From the NCBI GenBank assembly GCA_018652475.1, contig JABICB010000001.1:1-38714 (forward strand): DNA of 38,714 nucleotides. Direction: 5' to 3'. The notes under the pieces were generated by a model, which saw only the letters and a program-made list of their open reading frames with translations, had not been told where the DNA came from and did no database searches. Below, in pieces: positions 32,568-37,830 of this stretch (positions within the stretch are counted from its first letter, which is position 1; every line of letters starts with the position of its first letter). Source of the stretch: an archaeon (GTDB lineage: Archaea > Nanobdellota > Nanobdellia > SCGC-AAA011-G17 > PNOQ01). A program made the position numbers and the translations under genes.

Positions 32568-33182
32568 ATGATATTTGTACAAAGACTTATTGAGAATAAA
32601 CCTACAGCAGACGACCATAAACAATTAATAAGATTTAGTAAGGGAATTTTTAAAACTAGGTCAGCGTCAAAAATAAATATAGTAAAGGGGCTATTAAAAG
32701 TCTCAGCATCTTATGATCTTGCAAAAGATATTGCAAGGATGATTGCAAATACATCAAATAAAATAAGTATCAAAGGTAAAGTAATAAAATCAAAAAAGAA
32801 AGAAGAATTTGATGAAGTAGTTACAAAAGAACGATTATTAGCATTAATAGAAGAAAATGATTTTTTCTTATTACATTTAACTGCAGGAGATTATTCTCTT
32901 AAAGTTGGAAAAAGTATACCTAAGCCAGGAAAGGAATTGAAAGTTAATTGGTGCAAAGCTGTATTACCTGTAGAAAATGCAAAAGATTTCGCATTTGATT
33001 TCGAATTAAAAAAGAAGGCAGAGATTAGTCATGATTTTGTAATTGAAGATATAATAGTTCCAAAAGAATATGTAGATGATTTTCAAAAAGCAAGGATGTT
33101 TTCAAAAAGAAAGGGAAAAATAATTAGGAGAATCATAATAGATGGAGAGGAAACAGAAACAGAAACAGAATTCAAAGCTTAA
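32568..33182 (+). CDS. Uncharacterised cytoplasmic protein
   Basis: A 204-residue protein that I do not recognise. It has no signal peptide or membrane helix. The N-terminal half looks helical (MIFVQRLIENKPTADDHKQL, SYDLAKDIARMIANTSN); the C-terminal half looks beta-rich (DFFLLHLTAGDYSLKVGKSI, LKVNWCKAVLPVENAKDF, DFVIEDIIVPKEYVDDFQ), followed by a basic KRKGKIIRR and an acidic tail. Its tail coding sequence contains three GAAACA repeats, read as ETETET here and as KQKQKQ in the overlapping TraB-like gene. The overlap (41 bases) suggests that the two genes are translated together. Confidence 0.8.
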   Translation: MIFVQRLIENKPTADDHKQLIRFSKGIFKTRSASKINIVKGLLKVSASYDLAKDIARMIANTSNKISIKGKVIKSKKKEEFDEVVTKERLLALIEENDFFLLHLTAGDYSLKVGKSIPKPGKELKVNWCKAVLPVENAKDFAFDFELKKKAEISHDFVIEDIIVPKEYVDDFQKARMFSKRKGKIIRRIIIDGEETETETEFKA

Positions 33183-33984
33183 AGATTATTTTGTCTCGGC
33201 ATTAATCGGGACGACATTAGGATTAACTTTAAGTTTTTCTCCAAATATTATTAAAAATATCAATTCAAAACCAAATTTGGAAAAAGTACAAACCATTGCA
33301 AGTGAAGTAAACTATGAAATAAATGATTATTTTTTACCAAACAATAAAAAACCAGAATTAATTCTTATTGGAGATATACATGGGAGTACAAATACTCAAA
33401 TAAGTAAAATTTTGAATAAATTAGTAAGTAATAACGACGAGGTTCTAATTGAATGTCCAACAAATCAAACAACTCTCGAATCAGTTATAGAAAGGGAATA
33501 TTTAAGGCCACTATTTGAAGGAAAAAAGTTAACAAATATTTCTATTGAGGGAACTGATGATAGCCTATTAGTTGAGCAAAGTTTAGAAGTGGTAGAAATT
33601 ATGGATTATTCAAATTACTTAGGTATAAAAAAACTTTCAAGACTTGCAACAAATTATCTAATTTCTATTGCATATGAAAGGGATAGATTTTCCTTTTCTC
33701 CAAAGATAATCGAGTCTATAGAAAAGAATAGAATAAAAAACAATTCAATAAGAAATTTATTGGGATTAAGTGCATCCAGTGAATCATATCAAATCATAGG
33801 TTCATTACATTTGGAAATGGATGAAATAAGGAAGAATTTAAAAAAAGAAGGCGTTTCTTATATTTCGCTAATTCCTAACTTTGAATTAGAAAAAGATAGT
33901 GTATTAAGTCAAGAACGAAGAATAAATGCACAAAAAATATACGATAAGTCAAGAGGATATTTTAACCAATCAAAAGGTTTATAA
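33142..33984 (+). CDS. TraB/Tiki-like membrane-anchored protein
   Basis: A 280-residue protein: a basic N-terminus, one membrane helix (YFVSALIGTTLGLTLSF, 16-32), then a domain resembling the TraB/PrgY/GumN (Tiki) hydrolase fold. Motif candidates are GDIHG (77-81, the GxxH position), Glu104 in VLIECP, ERDR (179-182), and GSLHLE (220-225), the position of the family's G-x-x-H-L. Family members include eukaryotic Tiki (a membrane metalloprotease) and bacterial TraB/PrgY; the activity here is inferred. The ATG at 33142 lies within the previous gene (41-base overlap) with AGGAG upstream at 33126-33130. The gene ends 109 bases before uL3. Confidence 0.65.
   Translation: MERKQKQKQNSKLKDYFVSALIGTTLGLTLSFSPNIIKNINSKPNLEKVQTIASEVNYEINDYFLPNNKKPELILIGDIHGSTNTQISKILNKLVSNNDEVLIECPTNQTTLESVIEREYLRPLFEGKKLTNISIEGTDDSLLVEQSLEVVEIMDYSNYLGIKKLSRLATNYLISIAYERDRFSFSPKIIESIEKNRIKNNSIRNLLGLSASSESYQIIGSLHLEMDEIRKNLKKEGVSYISLIPNFELEKDSVLSQERRINAQKIYDKSRGYFNQSKGL
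33150..33167 (+). repeat. GAAACA tandem repeat in a gene overlap
   Basis: Three perfect copies of a 6-base unit (GAAACA) lie where the orphan gene and the TraB-like gene overlap, giving Glu-Thr repeats in one frame and Lys-Gln repeats in the other. Copy-number change would add two residues to both proteins without shifting either frame. Confidence 0.8.
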
Positions 33985-34000
33985 ATTACATATTCTGACT

Positions 34001-34039
34001 TTAGAATCCCCTACTGTACGTTGCAGTCGCTGATTCTAA
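34001..34039 (+). ncRNA. Candidate structured RNA hairpin before uL3
   Basis: The arms TTAGAATC (34001-34008) and GATTCTAA (34032-34039) are perfectly complementary. Inside them sit a symmetric 4+4 internal loop (CCCT and CGCT), a 6-base-pair inner stem (ACTGTA with TGCAGT, one G-U pair) and a 3-base loop CGT. The region is more G+C-rich than its surroundings and ends before the uL3 TATA box. It could be an RNA leader, a small RNA, or the end of the upstream transcript. No tRNA, C/D or H/ACA signature is seen. TTTATAAA lies upstream at 33978-33985. Confidence 0.45.
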
Positions 34040-34058
34040 GAGAGGACTCTATCAAAAG

Positions 34059-34068
34059 ATTTAAATAG
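34059..34068 (+). promoter_or_regulatory. TATA box for the ribosomal protein operon
   Basis: ATTTAAATAG lies about 30 bases before the uL3 ATG at 34094. The predicted start is about 34087, after the hairpin at 34001-34039, so this promoter alone would not transcribe the hairpin. Confidence 0.55.
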
Positions 34069-34093
34069 GGAACTATTACCCCAAAAAGTAAAA

Positions 34094-35044
34094 ATGGCAA
34101 CACCAACAAAACCAAGATCAGGAAGTTTGCAATTCTGGCCCAGGGTAAGGGCAAAAAGAATGCAAGCAAGGATTAGACAATGGGCTAATTCATCTAGTAA
34201 TGAAGTAATTGGTTTTGCAGGTTATAAGGCAGGCATGACTCATTTATCTATTATTGATAAAGAAAAAGGCATGACAAATGGAGAAAGGATTTCAGTTCCA
34301 GCAACTATAATTGAATGCCCATCCATAAAACCTATTTCTGTTCGAGTTTACAAACAAAATTATAGGGGATTGCAAGTTATTGATGAAATCCCTGCAAAAA
34401 AATTAGATAAAGAATTATCACGAAGATTAATATTGCCAAAAAAAGAAAAAACTGTCGAAGATCCAAAAGTTTTTGACGAATTAAGATTATTAGTTTACAC
34501 ACAACCAAAATTAACTGGAATTGGTAAGAAAAAACCAGAAGTATTCGAATTAGGTATAAATGGGGATTTAGAATATGCTAAATCACTATTAGAAAAAGAA
34601 ATAACTCTTGAAGATGTATTCAAACCAGGACAATATATAGATACTCACTCAATTACAACAGGTAAGGGATTTCAGGGAGTAGTAAAAAGGTTTGGAGTAA
34701 CATTAAAATCACACAAGTCCGAGAAAAAAAGAAGATCCATAGGTAACTTAGGACCTTTCACACCAAGAAGAGTTTCATTCAAAGTACCTCAAACTGGTCA
34801 AATGGGATGTCACACAAGAACTGAATATAATAAATTAATTTTAGGAATGGGTGCTAATCCAGAAGATGTAAACCAATCAGGTGGAATCAGAGGATATGGA
34901 GTTGTAAAAGGAAATTATTTATTAATTAAAGGTTCAGTTCCAGGACCAAAGAAAAGATTAATCAAATTTACAAAATCAATAAGAGGAACAAAAGATATTT
35001 CCGAACAAGATATAAGGAGAATAAGTACTAACTCTAAAAGATGA
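34094..35044 (+). CDS. rpl3: Ribosomal protein uL3
   Basis: Large-subunit protein near the peptidyl-transferase centre. The 316-residue sequence has the archaeal N-terminus (KPRSGSLQFWPRVRAKR) and the family core (GFAGYKAGMTHL, TGKGFQGVVKRFGV, RRSIGNLGPFTPRRV, QTGQMGCHTRTEYNKLIL). The end overlaps the uL4 ATG in an ATGA junction. It opens a ribosomal operon in archaeal order: uL3, uL4, uL23, uL2, uS19, uL22, uS3. Confidence 0.98.
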   Translation: MATPTKPRSGSLQFWPRVRAKRMQARIRQWANSSSNEVIGFAGYKAGMTHLSIIDKEKGMTNGERISVPATIIECPSIKPISVRVYKQNYRGLQVIDEIPAKKLDKELSRRLILPKKEKTVEDPKVFDELRLLVYTQPKLTGIGKKKPEVFELGINGDLEYAKSLLEKEITLEDVFKPGQYIDTHSITTGKGFQGVVKRFGVTLKSHKSEKKRRSIGNLGPFTPRRVSFKVPQTGQMGCHTRTEYNKLILGMGANPEDVNQSGGIRGYGVVKGNYLLIKGSVPGPKKRLIKFTKSIRGTKDISEQDIRRISTNSKR

Positions 35045-35880
35045 AAGCAACAATACTAGATATAACTGGAAAAAAGAAATCTGAAATAACTTTCCCTAGT
35101 CAGTTCAATGAAGAAATTAGGGCAGACTTAATAAAGAAAGTAGCAGTTGCCGCACAAGCAAATAAAAGGCAAAAATATGGTGCAACTCATAAAGCAGGTA
35201 TGAAACATTCAGCAACAGTATCTAGAAGAAGAAAAGATTACAGAGGTAGTTATGGACACGGTATCTCAAGAGTTCCAAGAAAGGTAATATTAAGAAGAGG
35301 AACAAGATTTGTTTGGATTGGTGCAATAGTTTCTGGAATGGTTGGAGGAAGGAGAGCTCACCCACCAAAGACAGAAAAGAATTGGGATCAAAAAATTAAT
35401 AATAAAGAAAGATTGAAAGCAATCAGATCAGCTATGGCTGCAACATTAAACAAAGATATGTTAAAAGAAAGTGGTTTTTCCACCTTTGAACCTATTGTTG
35501 TGGACAAATTAGAATCAATAAATAAAACTAAAGATTTACTAATAACTTTAAATGCATTAAATTTAGATAAAGAATTAGAGAGATCAAGAGAAAAGAAGAT
35601 TAGGGCAGGAAGAGGAACATCCAGGGGTAGAAAATACCAACGGAAGAAAGGTCCATTAGTAGTAGTAGTAAATTCAGATTCAATATTAAAGGCTGCACAG
35701 AATATTCCTGGATTGGAAATTGTTTCAGTTGATAAATTAAATATAACTTTACTTGCACCTGGAGCACGAGCCGGAAGATTAACTATCTGGTCAAAAGGAG
35801 CATTAGAAAAGTTAGAGAAAGAACAATTATTCACTGGAAAAAAAGTGGCAGTGAAAAAAATAGAGAAGGTAGCAAAATAA
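35041..35880 (+). CDS. rpl4: Ribosomal protein uL4
   Basis: Large-subunit protein lining the exit tunnel. The 279-residue sequence shows the archaeal/eukaryotic loop region (RQKYGATHKAGMKHSATVSR, YGHGISRVPRKV) and the later segment RAGRGTSRGRKYQRKKGPLV, with the C-terminal ITLLAPGARAGRLTIWSKGALEKL. Translation is coupled to uL3 by an overlap of 4 bases. The uL23 ATG begins 1 base after its stop. Confidence 0.98.
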   Translation: MKATILDITGKKKSEITFPSQFNEEIRADLIKKVAVAAQANKRQKYGATHKAGMKHSATVSRRRKDYRGSYGHGISRVPRKVILRRGTRFVWIGAIVSGMVGGRRAHPPKTEKNWDQKINNKERLKAIRSAMAATLNKDMLKESGFSTFEPIVVDKLESINKTKDLLITLNALNLDKELERSREKKIRAGRGTSRGRKYQRKKGPLVVVVNSDSILKAAQNIPGLEIVSVDKLNITLLAPGARAGRLTIWSKGALEKLEKEQLFTGKKVAVKKIEKVAK

Positions 35881-35881
35881 A

Positions 35882-36142
35882 ATGGATCCATACAATACAA
35901 TAAAATATTTATTAGGAACTGAAAAAGCAGTAAGAATCTTAGAAGAAGATAATAGGATTGTTTGTATTGTTCATAAAAAAGCAGATAAGGCTAAAATTAA
36001 AGAAGCATTTGAAGAAGCTTTCAAAGTTAAGGTAACAAAAATAAATACTTTAGTTACTCCACAAGGAAAAAAGAAGGCATATATAACTTTATCAGGGGAT
36101 CATCCTGCAATAGATATTGCAACAGAATTAGGATTAATGTAA
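35882..36142 (+). CDS. rpl23: Ribosomal protein uL23
   Basis: Exit-tunnel rim protein that docks chaperones and SRP. The 86-residue sequence matches archaeal uL23: NTIKYLLGTEKAVRILEEDN, a basic central part, VKVTKINTLVTPQGKKKAYI. The start ATG is 1 base after the uL4 stop and the uL2 ATG 1 base after its own. Confidence 0.97.
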   Translation: MDPYNTIKYLLGTEKAVRILEEDNRIVCIVHKKADKAKIKEAFEEAFKVKVTKINTLVTPQGKKKAYITLSGDHPAIDIATELGLM

Positions 36143-36143
36143 G

Positions 36144-36869
36144 ATGGGAAAAAGAATAATATCACAGAGAAGAGGAAGAGGAACTTCAACTTATAGGGCA
36201 CACAGTTTCAACTATAAGGGAATGGTTAGTCATAGAATCTATGATCAAATCGAACAAGAAAGTGTAATCTTTGGAAAAGTACTTGATATAATGCATTGCC
36301 CAGGACATTCAGCGCCACTTGCACTTATTGAGTATGAAAATAAAGAAAGAGTATTAACTCTTGCCTGTAAAGGAATGAATACTAAACAAATCGTACAATC
36401 TGGTTCAAAGGCAGAACCACTATTAGGAAATACAGTTCCAATAAGTAGCGTAGAAATAGGTATGGAAATCTTTAATATTGAAAATTCAACTGGAGACGGT
36501 GGAAAATATGTAAAGGCTGCAGGTGGATCAGCAAAAGTAGTATCAAAATCAGATAAAAAAGTAAAAATAAAATTTGCATCAAAAAAATTCAAAGAAGTAA
36601 CTAATACTTGCAGAGTAACAGTAGGAGTCATTGCCTCAACAGGTAAGACTGACAAACCTTTTGTTAAAGCAGGTAATAGATATTATGCAATGAAAGCTCG
36701 TAATAAATTATGGCCAAAAACTTCCGGAGTTGCAATGAACTCAGTAGACCATCCATTTGGATCCGGCCGTGGAAGACACATTGGTAAATCAAAAGTTGCT
36801 CCCCGTAATGCACCTCCTGGAAGAAAGGTTGGTCCAATAAGGGCAAGAAGATTAGGTAAGAAGAAATAA
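36144..36869 (+). CDS. rpl2: Ribosomal protein uL2
   Basis: Large-subunit protein essential for peptidyl transfer and subunit joining. The 241-residue sequence begins MGKRIISQRRGRGTSTYRAH, has the SH3-like and OB-fold segments (VLDIMHCPGHSAPLALIEYE, CRVTVGVIASTGKTDKPFVKAG) and the conserved C-terminal loop AMNSVDHPFGSGRGRH. It ends in the basic RARRLGKKK. Archaeal in type and of normal length. Confidence 0.98.
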   Translation: MGKRIISQRRGRGTSTYRAHSFNYKGMVSHRIYDQIEQESVIFGKVLDIMHCPGHSAPLALIEYENKERVLTLACKGMNTKQIVQSGSKAEPLLGNTVPISSVEIGMEIFNIENSTGDGGKYVKAAGGSAKVVSKSDKKVKIKFASKKFKEVTNTCRVTVGVIASTGKTDKPFVKAGNRYYAMKARNKLWPKTSGVAMNSVDHPFGSGRGRHIGKSKVAPRNAPPGRKVGPIRARRLGKKK

Positions 36870-36871
36870 AA

Positions 36872-37270
36872 ATGGCAAAAAAAGAATTCAAATTTCACGG
36901 AAAATCACTTGAAGAAGTTAAAACAATGAGTTTAACAGAGTTTGGTAAACTATTGCCTTCTAGACAAAGGAGATCTCTTCAAAGAGGTTATACTGAAGCA
37001 CAGAAGAAATTAATATATAAAGTGAAAAGAACAAATGAAGGAACTTACAAAAAAACAATAAAAACTCATTGTAGAGATGTAATAATAGTTCCATCTATGC
37101 TTGGATTAACTATTTTAATTCATACTGGAAGAAAATTTGAGGCATTAATGGTAGTTCCAGAAATGTTAGGTCATTTCTTAGGAGAGTTTGCTTTAACTAG
37201 AACAAGATTGCAACATTCTTCACCAGGTATCGGTGCTACAAGATCAAGTGCATCACAATCAACACACTAA
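36872..37270 (+). CDS. rps19: Ribosomal protein uS19
   Basis: Small-subunit head protein at the subunit interface. The 132-residue sequence has the archaeal features LLPSRQRRSLQRGYTEAQKK, THCRDVIIVPSMLGLTILIH and MLGHFLGEFALTRTRLQHSSPGIGATRSS. The ATG follows the uL2 stop by 2 bases; the uL22 ATG follows its stop by 2 bases. Confidence 0.98.
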   Translation: MAKKEFKFHGKSLEEVKTMSLTEFGKLLPSRQRRSLQRGYTEAQKKLIYKVKRTNEGTYKKTIKTHCRDVIIVPSMLGLTILIHTGRKFEALMVVPEMLGHFLGEFALTRTRLQHSSPGIGATRSSASQSTH

Positions 37271-37272
37271 AA

Positions 37273-37830
37273 ATGAGTACTGAAACAAAAAAAACGGAAA
37301 AGAAAATAGTAGCTAAAGTAGATACTAAAGTAGATACTAAAGTAGATACTAAAGTAGATACTAAAGTAGATACTAAAGTAGATACTAAATTAGATACTAA
37401 AGTTGAAAAGAAAGTAGAAGTTAAAGATCATACTGCAAAAGTAGATGTTAAAAATCTAAGAATTTCAACAAAGTTTTCAGTAGAGATTGGTAAATTCATT
37501 ATTAAAAAAAATCTTCAAACTGCAAAAAAAATGTTAGAAGAAGTAATACTAATAAAACAAGCAGTTCCAATGAAGAAATACAAAAAAGAAGTTCCCCATA
37601 AAGTTGGAATGGCTGCAGGAAGATATCCAGTAAAAGCTTCAGAAGCAGTATTAATGTTATTAAAATCAGTAGAAAGTAATGCTGAAGAAAAAGGATTAGC
37701 AACTGAGAAATTAATAATCTCTGAATTCATTACTGGAAAAGGTACAAATCAGATGCATCAAGGTAGGCATAGAGGAAGATCAATGAAGAGAACTCATATT
37801 AAAATAGTAGTTAGGGAATCTGAAAAATGA
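37273..37830 (+). CDS. rpl22: Ribosomal protein uL22 with repeat-rich N-terminal extension
   Basis: Exit-tunnel protein of 185 residues. The conserved uL22 body starts near residue 55 (VDVKNLRISTKFSVEIGKFI) and has KMLEEVILIKQAVPMKKYKKEVPHK, GMAAGRYPVKASEAVLMLLKSVESNAEEKGL and TGKGTNQMHQGRHRGRSMKRTHI. It is preceded by an extension of about 50 residues, with seven VDTK/LDTK tetrapeptides in a row (residues 16-43). This tail is not part of standard uL22 and would be flexible. Its stop overlaps the uS3 ATG. Confidence 0.96.
   Translation: MSTETKKTEKKIVAKVDTKVDTKVDTKVDTKVDTKVDTKLDTKVEKKVEVKDHTAKVDVKNLRISTKFSVEIGKFIIKKNLQTAKKMLEEVILIKQAVPMKKYKKEVPHKVGMAAGRYPVKASEAVLMLLKSVESNAEEKGLATEKLIISEFITGKGTNQMHQGRHRGRSMKRTHIKIVVRESEK
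37318..37401 (+). repeat. 12-bp tandem repeat in uL22 N-terminus
   Basis: Seven copies of a unit GTAGATACTAAA (one variant TTAGATACTAAA) run in frame, encoding VDTK repeats. The near-perfect DNA identity suggests recent expansion by slippage. Confidence 0.95.

Follow-up and report, generated by a model that had tools for sequence, protein, structure and literature searches.

Upstream of a ribosomal protein operon, a hairpin can be drawn between an open reading frame and the first gene, uL3, in the window (the whole 38,714-nucleotide stretch of archaeal DNA analyzed here). Does this hairpin act on the operon, or does another element at the same place do so? The features that bear on this question are collected in Table 1.

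Table 1. Features around the uL3 leader region, in window coordinates
Feature	Position	Strand	Basis or remark
TATA box 1, predicted leader promoter; TTTATAAA overlaps the upstream ORF at its end	33978..33985	+	predicted start at ~34006-34010; spacing to CCCTACTG in relatives
Earlier-described hairpin, outer stem 34001-34008 with 34032-34039	34001..34039	+	judged a chance fold; 5' arm at or before the predicted start
Core 5' half, CCCTACTG, with an extra C at 34008; predicted mRNA 5' end	34009..34016	+	columns 83-98% identical, 48 aligned loci
Small hairpin ACTGTA-CGT-TGCAGT with a 3-bp CUG/CAG core	34013..34027	+	fold of the window; identical in the genus mate
Core 3' half, AG[CT]CGCTGATTCTA	34025..34038	+	conservation over 48 loci
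TATA box 2, predicted second promoter; TTTAAATA, 34 nt upstream of the uL3 ATG	34060..34067	+	position; box in relatives
uL3 gene, first of the operon	34094..35044	+	PF00297, E 9.3e-63
uL4, uL23, uL2, uS19 and uL22, rest of the operon in the window	35041..37830	+	PF00573, PF00276, PF03947, PF00203, PF00237

The drawn hairpin is a chance fold

The geometry that the first-pass annotation drew is real: the arms TTAGAATC and GATTCTAA, the CCCT/CGCT internal loop, the inner stem ACTGTA/TGCAGT with one G-U pair and the CGT loop are all present. Its description of the hairpin as a well-ordered structure did not hold up, as the fold has a z value of only −1.6 and 11 of 200 shuffled sequences fold equally well. 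The window contains 31 perfect 8-bp stems with loops of 3-30 nt, fewer than the average of 36.9 for 15 Markov-1 randomizations, and two 8-bp stems enclosing a 6-bp inner stem, as against a mean of about two in 30 random versions. Among 17 aligned loci, the outer helix is paired in 45.9% of cells and the whole drawn structure in 51.1%, compared to 51.9% in shuffles. The annotation had itself proposed loss of the stems in close relatives, or a lack of compensatory changes, as the test of a conserved hairpin. The genus mate and most relatives have a disrupted outer stem, and the stems are lost in close relatives with no compensatory changes; the drawn hairpin is therefore refuted. The structure at 34001-34039 is a chance fold that overlies a conserved primary-sequence signal. 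As to the place, the annotation proved right insofar as an element specific to the uL3 operon does lie here, but the hairpin is not that element.

A bipartite core is conserved inside the hairpin

We located uL3 in 57 of 61 relatives and read the upstream stretches of 55 of these; in the other two, G044 and G026, the sequence stops at the gene or within it. Upstream stretches from 38 more genomes of the order were added, as were 80 named loci, some of which belong to the same genomes. The core in the window consists of CCCTACTG, a short insert and AGTCGCTGATTCTA, and the arrangement of CCCTACTG, an insert of 9-73 nt and the 3' half recurs upstream of uL3 in 37 loci. Conservation in the aligned loci begins abruptly at the CCC of the 5' half. 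Within the 3' half, ATTCT is identical in all 48 aligned loci, the C/T position reaches 64%, the last A 81% and the other columns 89-98%. The genus mate, whose uL3 is 71% identical, has kept the core letter for letter, whereas the outer stem is not preserved. Conservation of this primary-sequence core is far above chance. In locus L012 (G004) of the same family only the 3' half is clearly retained, and G019 of the same order, where the locus lies at a contig end, is without the core and has an apparently leaderless uL3.

The small hairpin listed in Table 1 may bring the two halves of the core together. Its CUG/CAG pairs are nearly invariant and many short inserts do not fold; RNAalifold found no common pairs in the core, and the short form is without a secondary structure supported by covariation. 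Among the long inserts, 9 of 17 have a fold that equals or surpasses those of 96% of their own shuffles. By eye, the CCC could be paired with a downstream GG in some rows only.

We built a model of the core (R1) from 17 sequences, with 3 bp, and counted its matches at E ≤ 0.01 in the 103 genomes of the order, 97 of which have a uL3 match. R1 matched 37 of the 103 genomes, with one match per genome, and every one of these matches precedes uL3 by 17-98 nt on the same strand, the placement expected of a ribosomal protein leader (r-leader). The 37 genomes comprise the 17 training rows (L077 and L102 being equated with G097 and G094 by coordinates) and 20 that are not in the model. Across the phylum, 21 of 371 sampled genomes match, all from the window's own order or nearer. 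The core is thus conserved, confined to uL3, always on the strand of that gene and at a fixed distance from a TATA box, as described below.

A predicted promoter at fixed spacing would place the core at the 5' end of the transcript

An archaeal TATA box lies about 28 nt before the start of transcription, according to PMC8553660. A TTTATAAA-like box begins 30-33 nt upstream of CCCTACTG at 35 of 37 loci, the exceptions being L060 (best box at 58, a weaker one at 30) and L035 (no box). Because of this fixed spacing, CCCTACTG is the predicted 5' end of the mRNA, at about 34008 in the window, and a start within the range given in Table 1 would leave the 5' arm of the drawn hairpin mostly untranscribed. 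The earlier suggestion that the element is carried on read-through transcripts is unneeded, since TATA box 1 should start a transcript at the core itself.

CCCTACTG downstream of a TATA box is not a general initiator. The pattern TATAWAN(21-26)CCCTACTG has 34 matches in 33 of the 103 genomes, of which 30 are at uL3 (coordinates compared by eye) and four elsewhere (G009, G003, G099 and a second copy in G020), whereas a reversed control pattern has 11 matches in the same 103 genomes.

TATA box 2 is predicted to give an almost leaderless uL3 mRNA. A strict match to such a second box occurs in 18 of 49 loci. The 31 without a strict match include the window and its genus mate, each of which has a weaker box, and in most of these 31 the core falls within the apparent 5' UTR of uL3. 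Between the core and uL3 the window has no run of at least five T, and such a run precedes the gene at just 1 of 37 loci. The TATA spacing and the absent T runs are the indications that the core may lie within the 5' UTR of the uL3 mRNA; the absent T runs also speak against the transcript end proposed in the first-pass annotation. That the drawn hairpin itself works, as a regulator on read-through RNA or as a transcript end, is hardly credible: it does fold as described, but it is not above chance, it is lost in relatives including the genus mate, its 5' arm precedes the predicted start and no T run stands behind it.

Fuller relatives join the core to a covarying RNA module

A second module, of the form AAGGCGA-stem-GAYGUCU-stem', follows the core in these fuller relatives. 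Among 22 chosen sequences, pairing in the stem of this module reaches 100% of cells, and 4 of 4 pairs have changed on both sides. A pseudoknot AAGGC:GUCUU is possible: in the same rows, its four main pairs are formed in 100% and are nearly invariant, and the fifth in 72.7%. A model of the module (R2) has 41 matches in 37 of the 103 genomes of the order, and 35 of the 41 lie upstream of uL3; the other six are not at uL3 and are all weak (E ≥ 4.8e-4). R1 and R2 occur together at uL3 in seven genomes by model and, by eye, additionally in G020, G093 and G095, and we therefore regard the core and the R2 module as one leader. Of the 66 genomes of the order from which R1 is absent, 28 carry the R2 module at uL3, and one or the other marks 65 of the 97 genomes with uL3. 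We searched the window for the R2 module, which is absent there.

Comparison with known leaders and with ribosomal RNA

A scan of the window with 4227 Rfam families at gathering thresholds, combined with ARAGORN, returned three tRNAs only, and a lax Rfam scan of 33900-34150 gave no match to box C/D, H/ACA or any other family. In bacteria, the S10 leader is bound by uL4 and differs from the archaeal operon's in leader structure and gene order. It is similar in leading an operon with uL3, uL4, uL23 and uL2, a likeness that we followed through Rfam scans alone.

PMC7247131 mentions a bacterial L4 leader and lists few archaeal r-leaders, namely S15, eL15 and L4. Those for S15 and eL15 are likewise predicted to be cis-acting on ribosomal protein genes, but they belong to other operons and other lineages. 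The L4-Archaeoglobi leader RF03135 (Eckert and Weinberg 2020), upstream of rplC, rplD, rplW and rplB, is a predicted leader of the same archaeal operon, and uL4 is its predicted ligand by precedent (PMC7247131). It differs in being a structure of 85 positions with several stems that in Archaeoglobi precedes uL3 by roughly 400-500 nt. RF03135 did not match 33900-34150 of the window at E values up to 5. In one scan, all four Archaeoglobi-type uL3 loci matched it as a positive control, whereas six loci from Woesearchaeota or resembling the window's gave no match at gathering level. The annotation's remark that no uL3 leader of such a layout had been described is therefore correct in that no Rfam family fits, but a leader of the uL3 operon is known from Archaeoglobi, even if it is unmatched here. 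In the freely available papers that we searched, we found no uL3 leader for Woesearchaeota and no r-leader for DPANN archaea; a search there for papers on structured or noncoding RNA in Woesearchaeota found none. We class the element as a new candidate r-leader.

Neither sequence comparison nor models pointed to mimicry of rRNA by the leader. Against six rRNA loci, models R1, R2 and R3 (the last described below) gave no match better than E 0.43. The leaders share the short words UUUAAUAA and GAUGUCU with 23S rRNA, where we take the former to be the loop of H65 and the latter to lie near H66 as part of the uL2 site; with no model match, we rejected these words as chance. The UUU of UUUAAUAA is stem-paired in the leaders, unlike in 23S, where it is presumably not in a stem. 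CCCTACTG was likewise rejected as a 23S mimic: of 6 rRNA loci, 1 contains it, the 23S of the genus mate. In the window's own assembly no 23S match was found.

A putative autoregulatory leader and its alternatives

The reading that we hold fairly probable is a new cis-regulatory leader in the mRNA of the uL3-uL4-uL23-uL2-uS19-uL22 operon, of which the site would be the 5'-terminal part and which is probably autoregulated by one of the operon's own proteins. Transcription would start from TATA box 1 at about 34008, such that the mRNA begins with CCCUACUG, and the short insert would place CCCUACUG close to the second conserved half, AG(U/C)CGCUGAUUCUA. The proteins encoded by uL3 or by the rest of the operon are candidate ligands. 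An operon protein present in excess over rRNA (uL4 first, by precedent, or uL3, uL2 or uL23) might bind the core, and such binding would make the operon mRNA less stable or less well translated. A shorter mRNA from TATA box 2 would escape control by the leader. PMC7247131 cautions that guesses at the ligand carry little weight when an operon has several genes. We infer from the sequence that the core is transcribed, and likewise that it has a ligand and a regulatory role; in Woesearchaeota-like archaea, the conserved core is probably an undescribed element that limits ribosomal protein production.

Action at the RNA level suits the core because the distance between its halves varies (9-73 nt) and long inserts often fold. 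The same two facts weaken the idea that CCCTACTG...CGCTGATTCTA is an operator in the DNA of the initiator region, right behind TATA box 1, to which a transcription regulator binds. The fixed TATA spacing of the 5' half would fit such an operator, as would the conservation of sequence rather than pairs in short forms, but the 3' half drifts relative to both the 5' half and the TATA box, the long inserts are often hairpins, and in fuller relatives the core is joined to an RNA module that covaries. We consider an operator unlikely. That TATA box 1 instead drives an independent, trans-acting small RNA ending before TATA box 2 seems quite improbable. The two TATA boxes in the window, and the strict second box in other loci, would allow for it; however, the lack of a T run after the core, the 31 loci without a strict second box, the constant position beside uL3 and the single R1 match per genome all count against it.

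Within the leader reading, the first transcribed letters, CCCUACUG, set by the TATA spacing, might form half of a recognition site at the very 5' end of the mRNA, with uL3 leaders of the core, pseudoknot and GCCUGAAAAG types then swapped across the class; this proposal we hold to be rather doubtful. The 5' terminal oligopyrimidine (TOP) signal of eukaryotic ribosomal protein mRNAs is somewhat alike, in that the mRNA's own start is read. If the autoregulatory leader is real, these archaea, with their very small genomes, also tune the synthesis of ribosomal proteins by an mRNA leader, and its exact predicted mRNA start is provided here.

Neighboring genes and other leaders at uL3

Neither Pfam at E 0.001 nor tblastn against the uL3 loci of 29 relatives gave a match for the upstream ORF called 'TraB-like' in the first-pass annotation (33142-33984); viral relatives of the upstream ORF were sought and none were found. 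This ORF seems to have been inserted between a 204-aa ORF and the leader, the leader having stayed next to uL3. Relatives of the 204-aa ORF (32568-33182), for which Pfam likewise gave no match, lie upstream of uL3 in 6 of the 29 loci examined, which makes the 204-aa ORF a conserved neighbor.

In sister lineages, an element of the form GCCUGAAAAG...AAUAGGC occupies the same place upstream of uL3 (32 rows; L219-L248, L082-L127). In 14 chosen rows, 95.8% of its cells are paired and 5 of 12 pairs have changed on both sides, a level that none of 500 shuffles reached. The corresponding model (R3) matches 31 of the 371 phylum genomes, some of which may be training genomes, and none in the window's own order; uL3 is near the match in all 30 loci examined of these 31. 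Leaders of several different designs thus seem to exist for the uL3 operon within this class, which would offer material on the origin and replacement of leaders.

Further forms were seen upstream of uL3. CUUUUCAGUACAGUU...AACUGUUUUCU stands inside the GCCUGAAAAG frame in L074, L075, L084, L092, L096, L099, L113 and others, and covers nearly all of the 19 rows set aside from the 32. A hairpin ending in AUYUAAUA precedes uL3 in L022, L030, L018, L193, L199 and L207, also in families without the window's core, and its 5' partner seems by eye to covary. Thermoplasmata/Poseidoniia and Methanosarcina (L122, L140, L145 and L149; L139, L147 and L148) have stretches before uL3 that look conserved by eye, for example TGTCACGGTT and GGTCTGCTCGAGGCTTT, and these are possibly further uL3 leaders.
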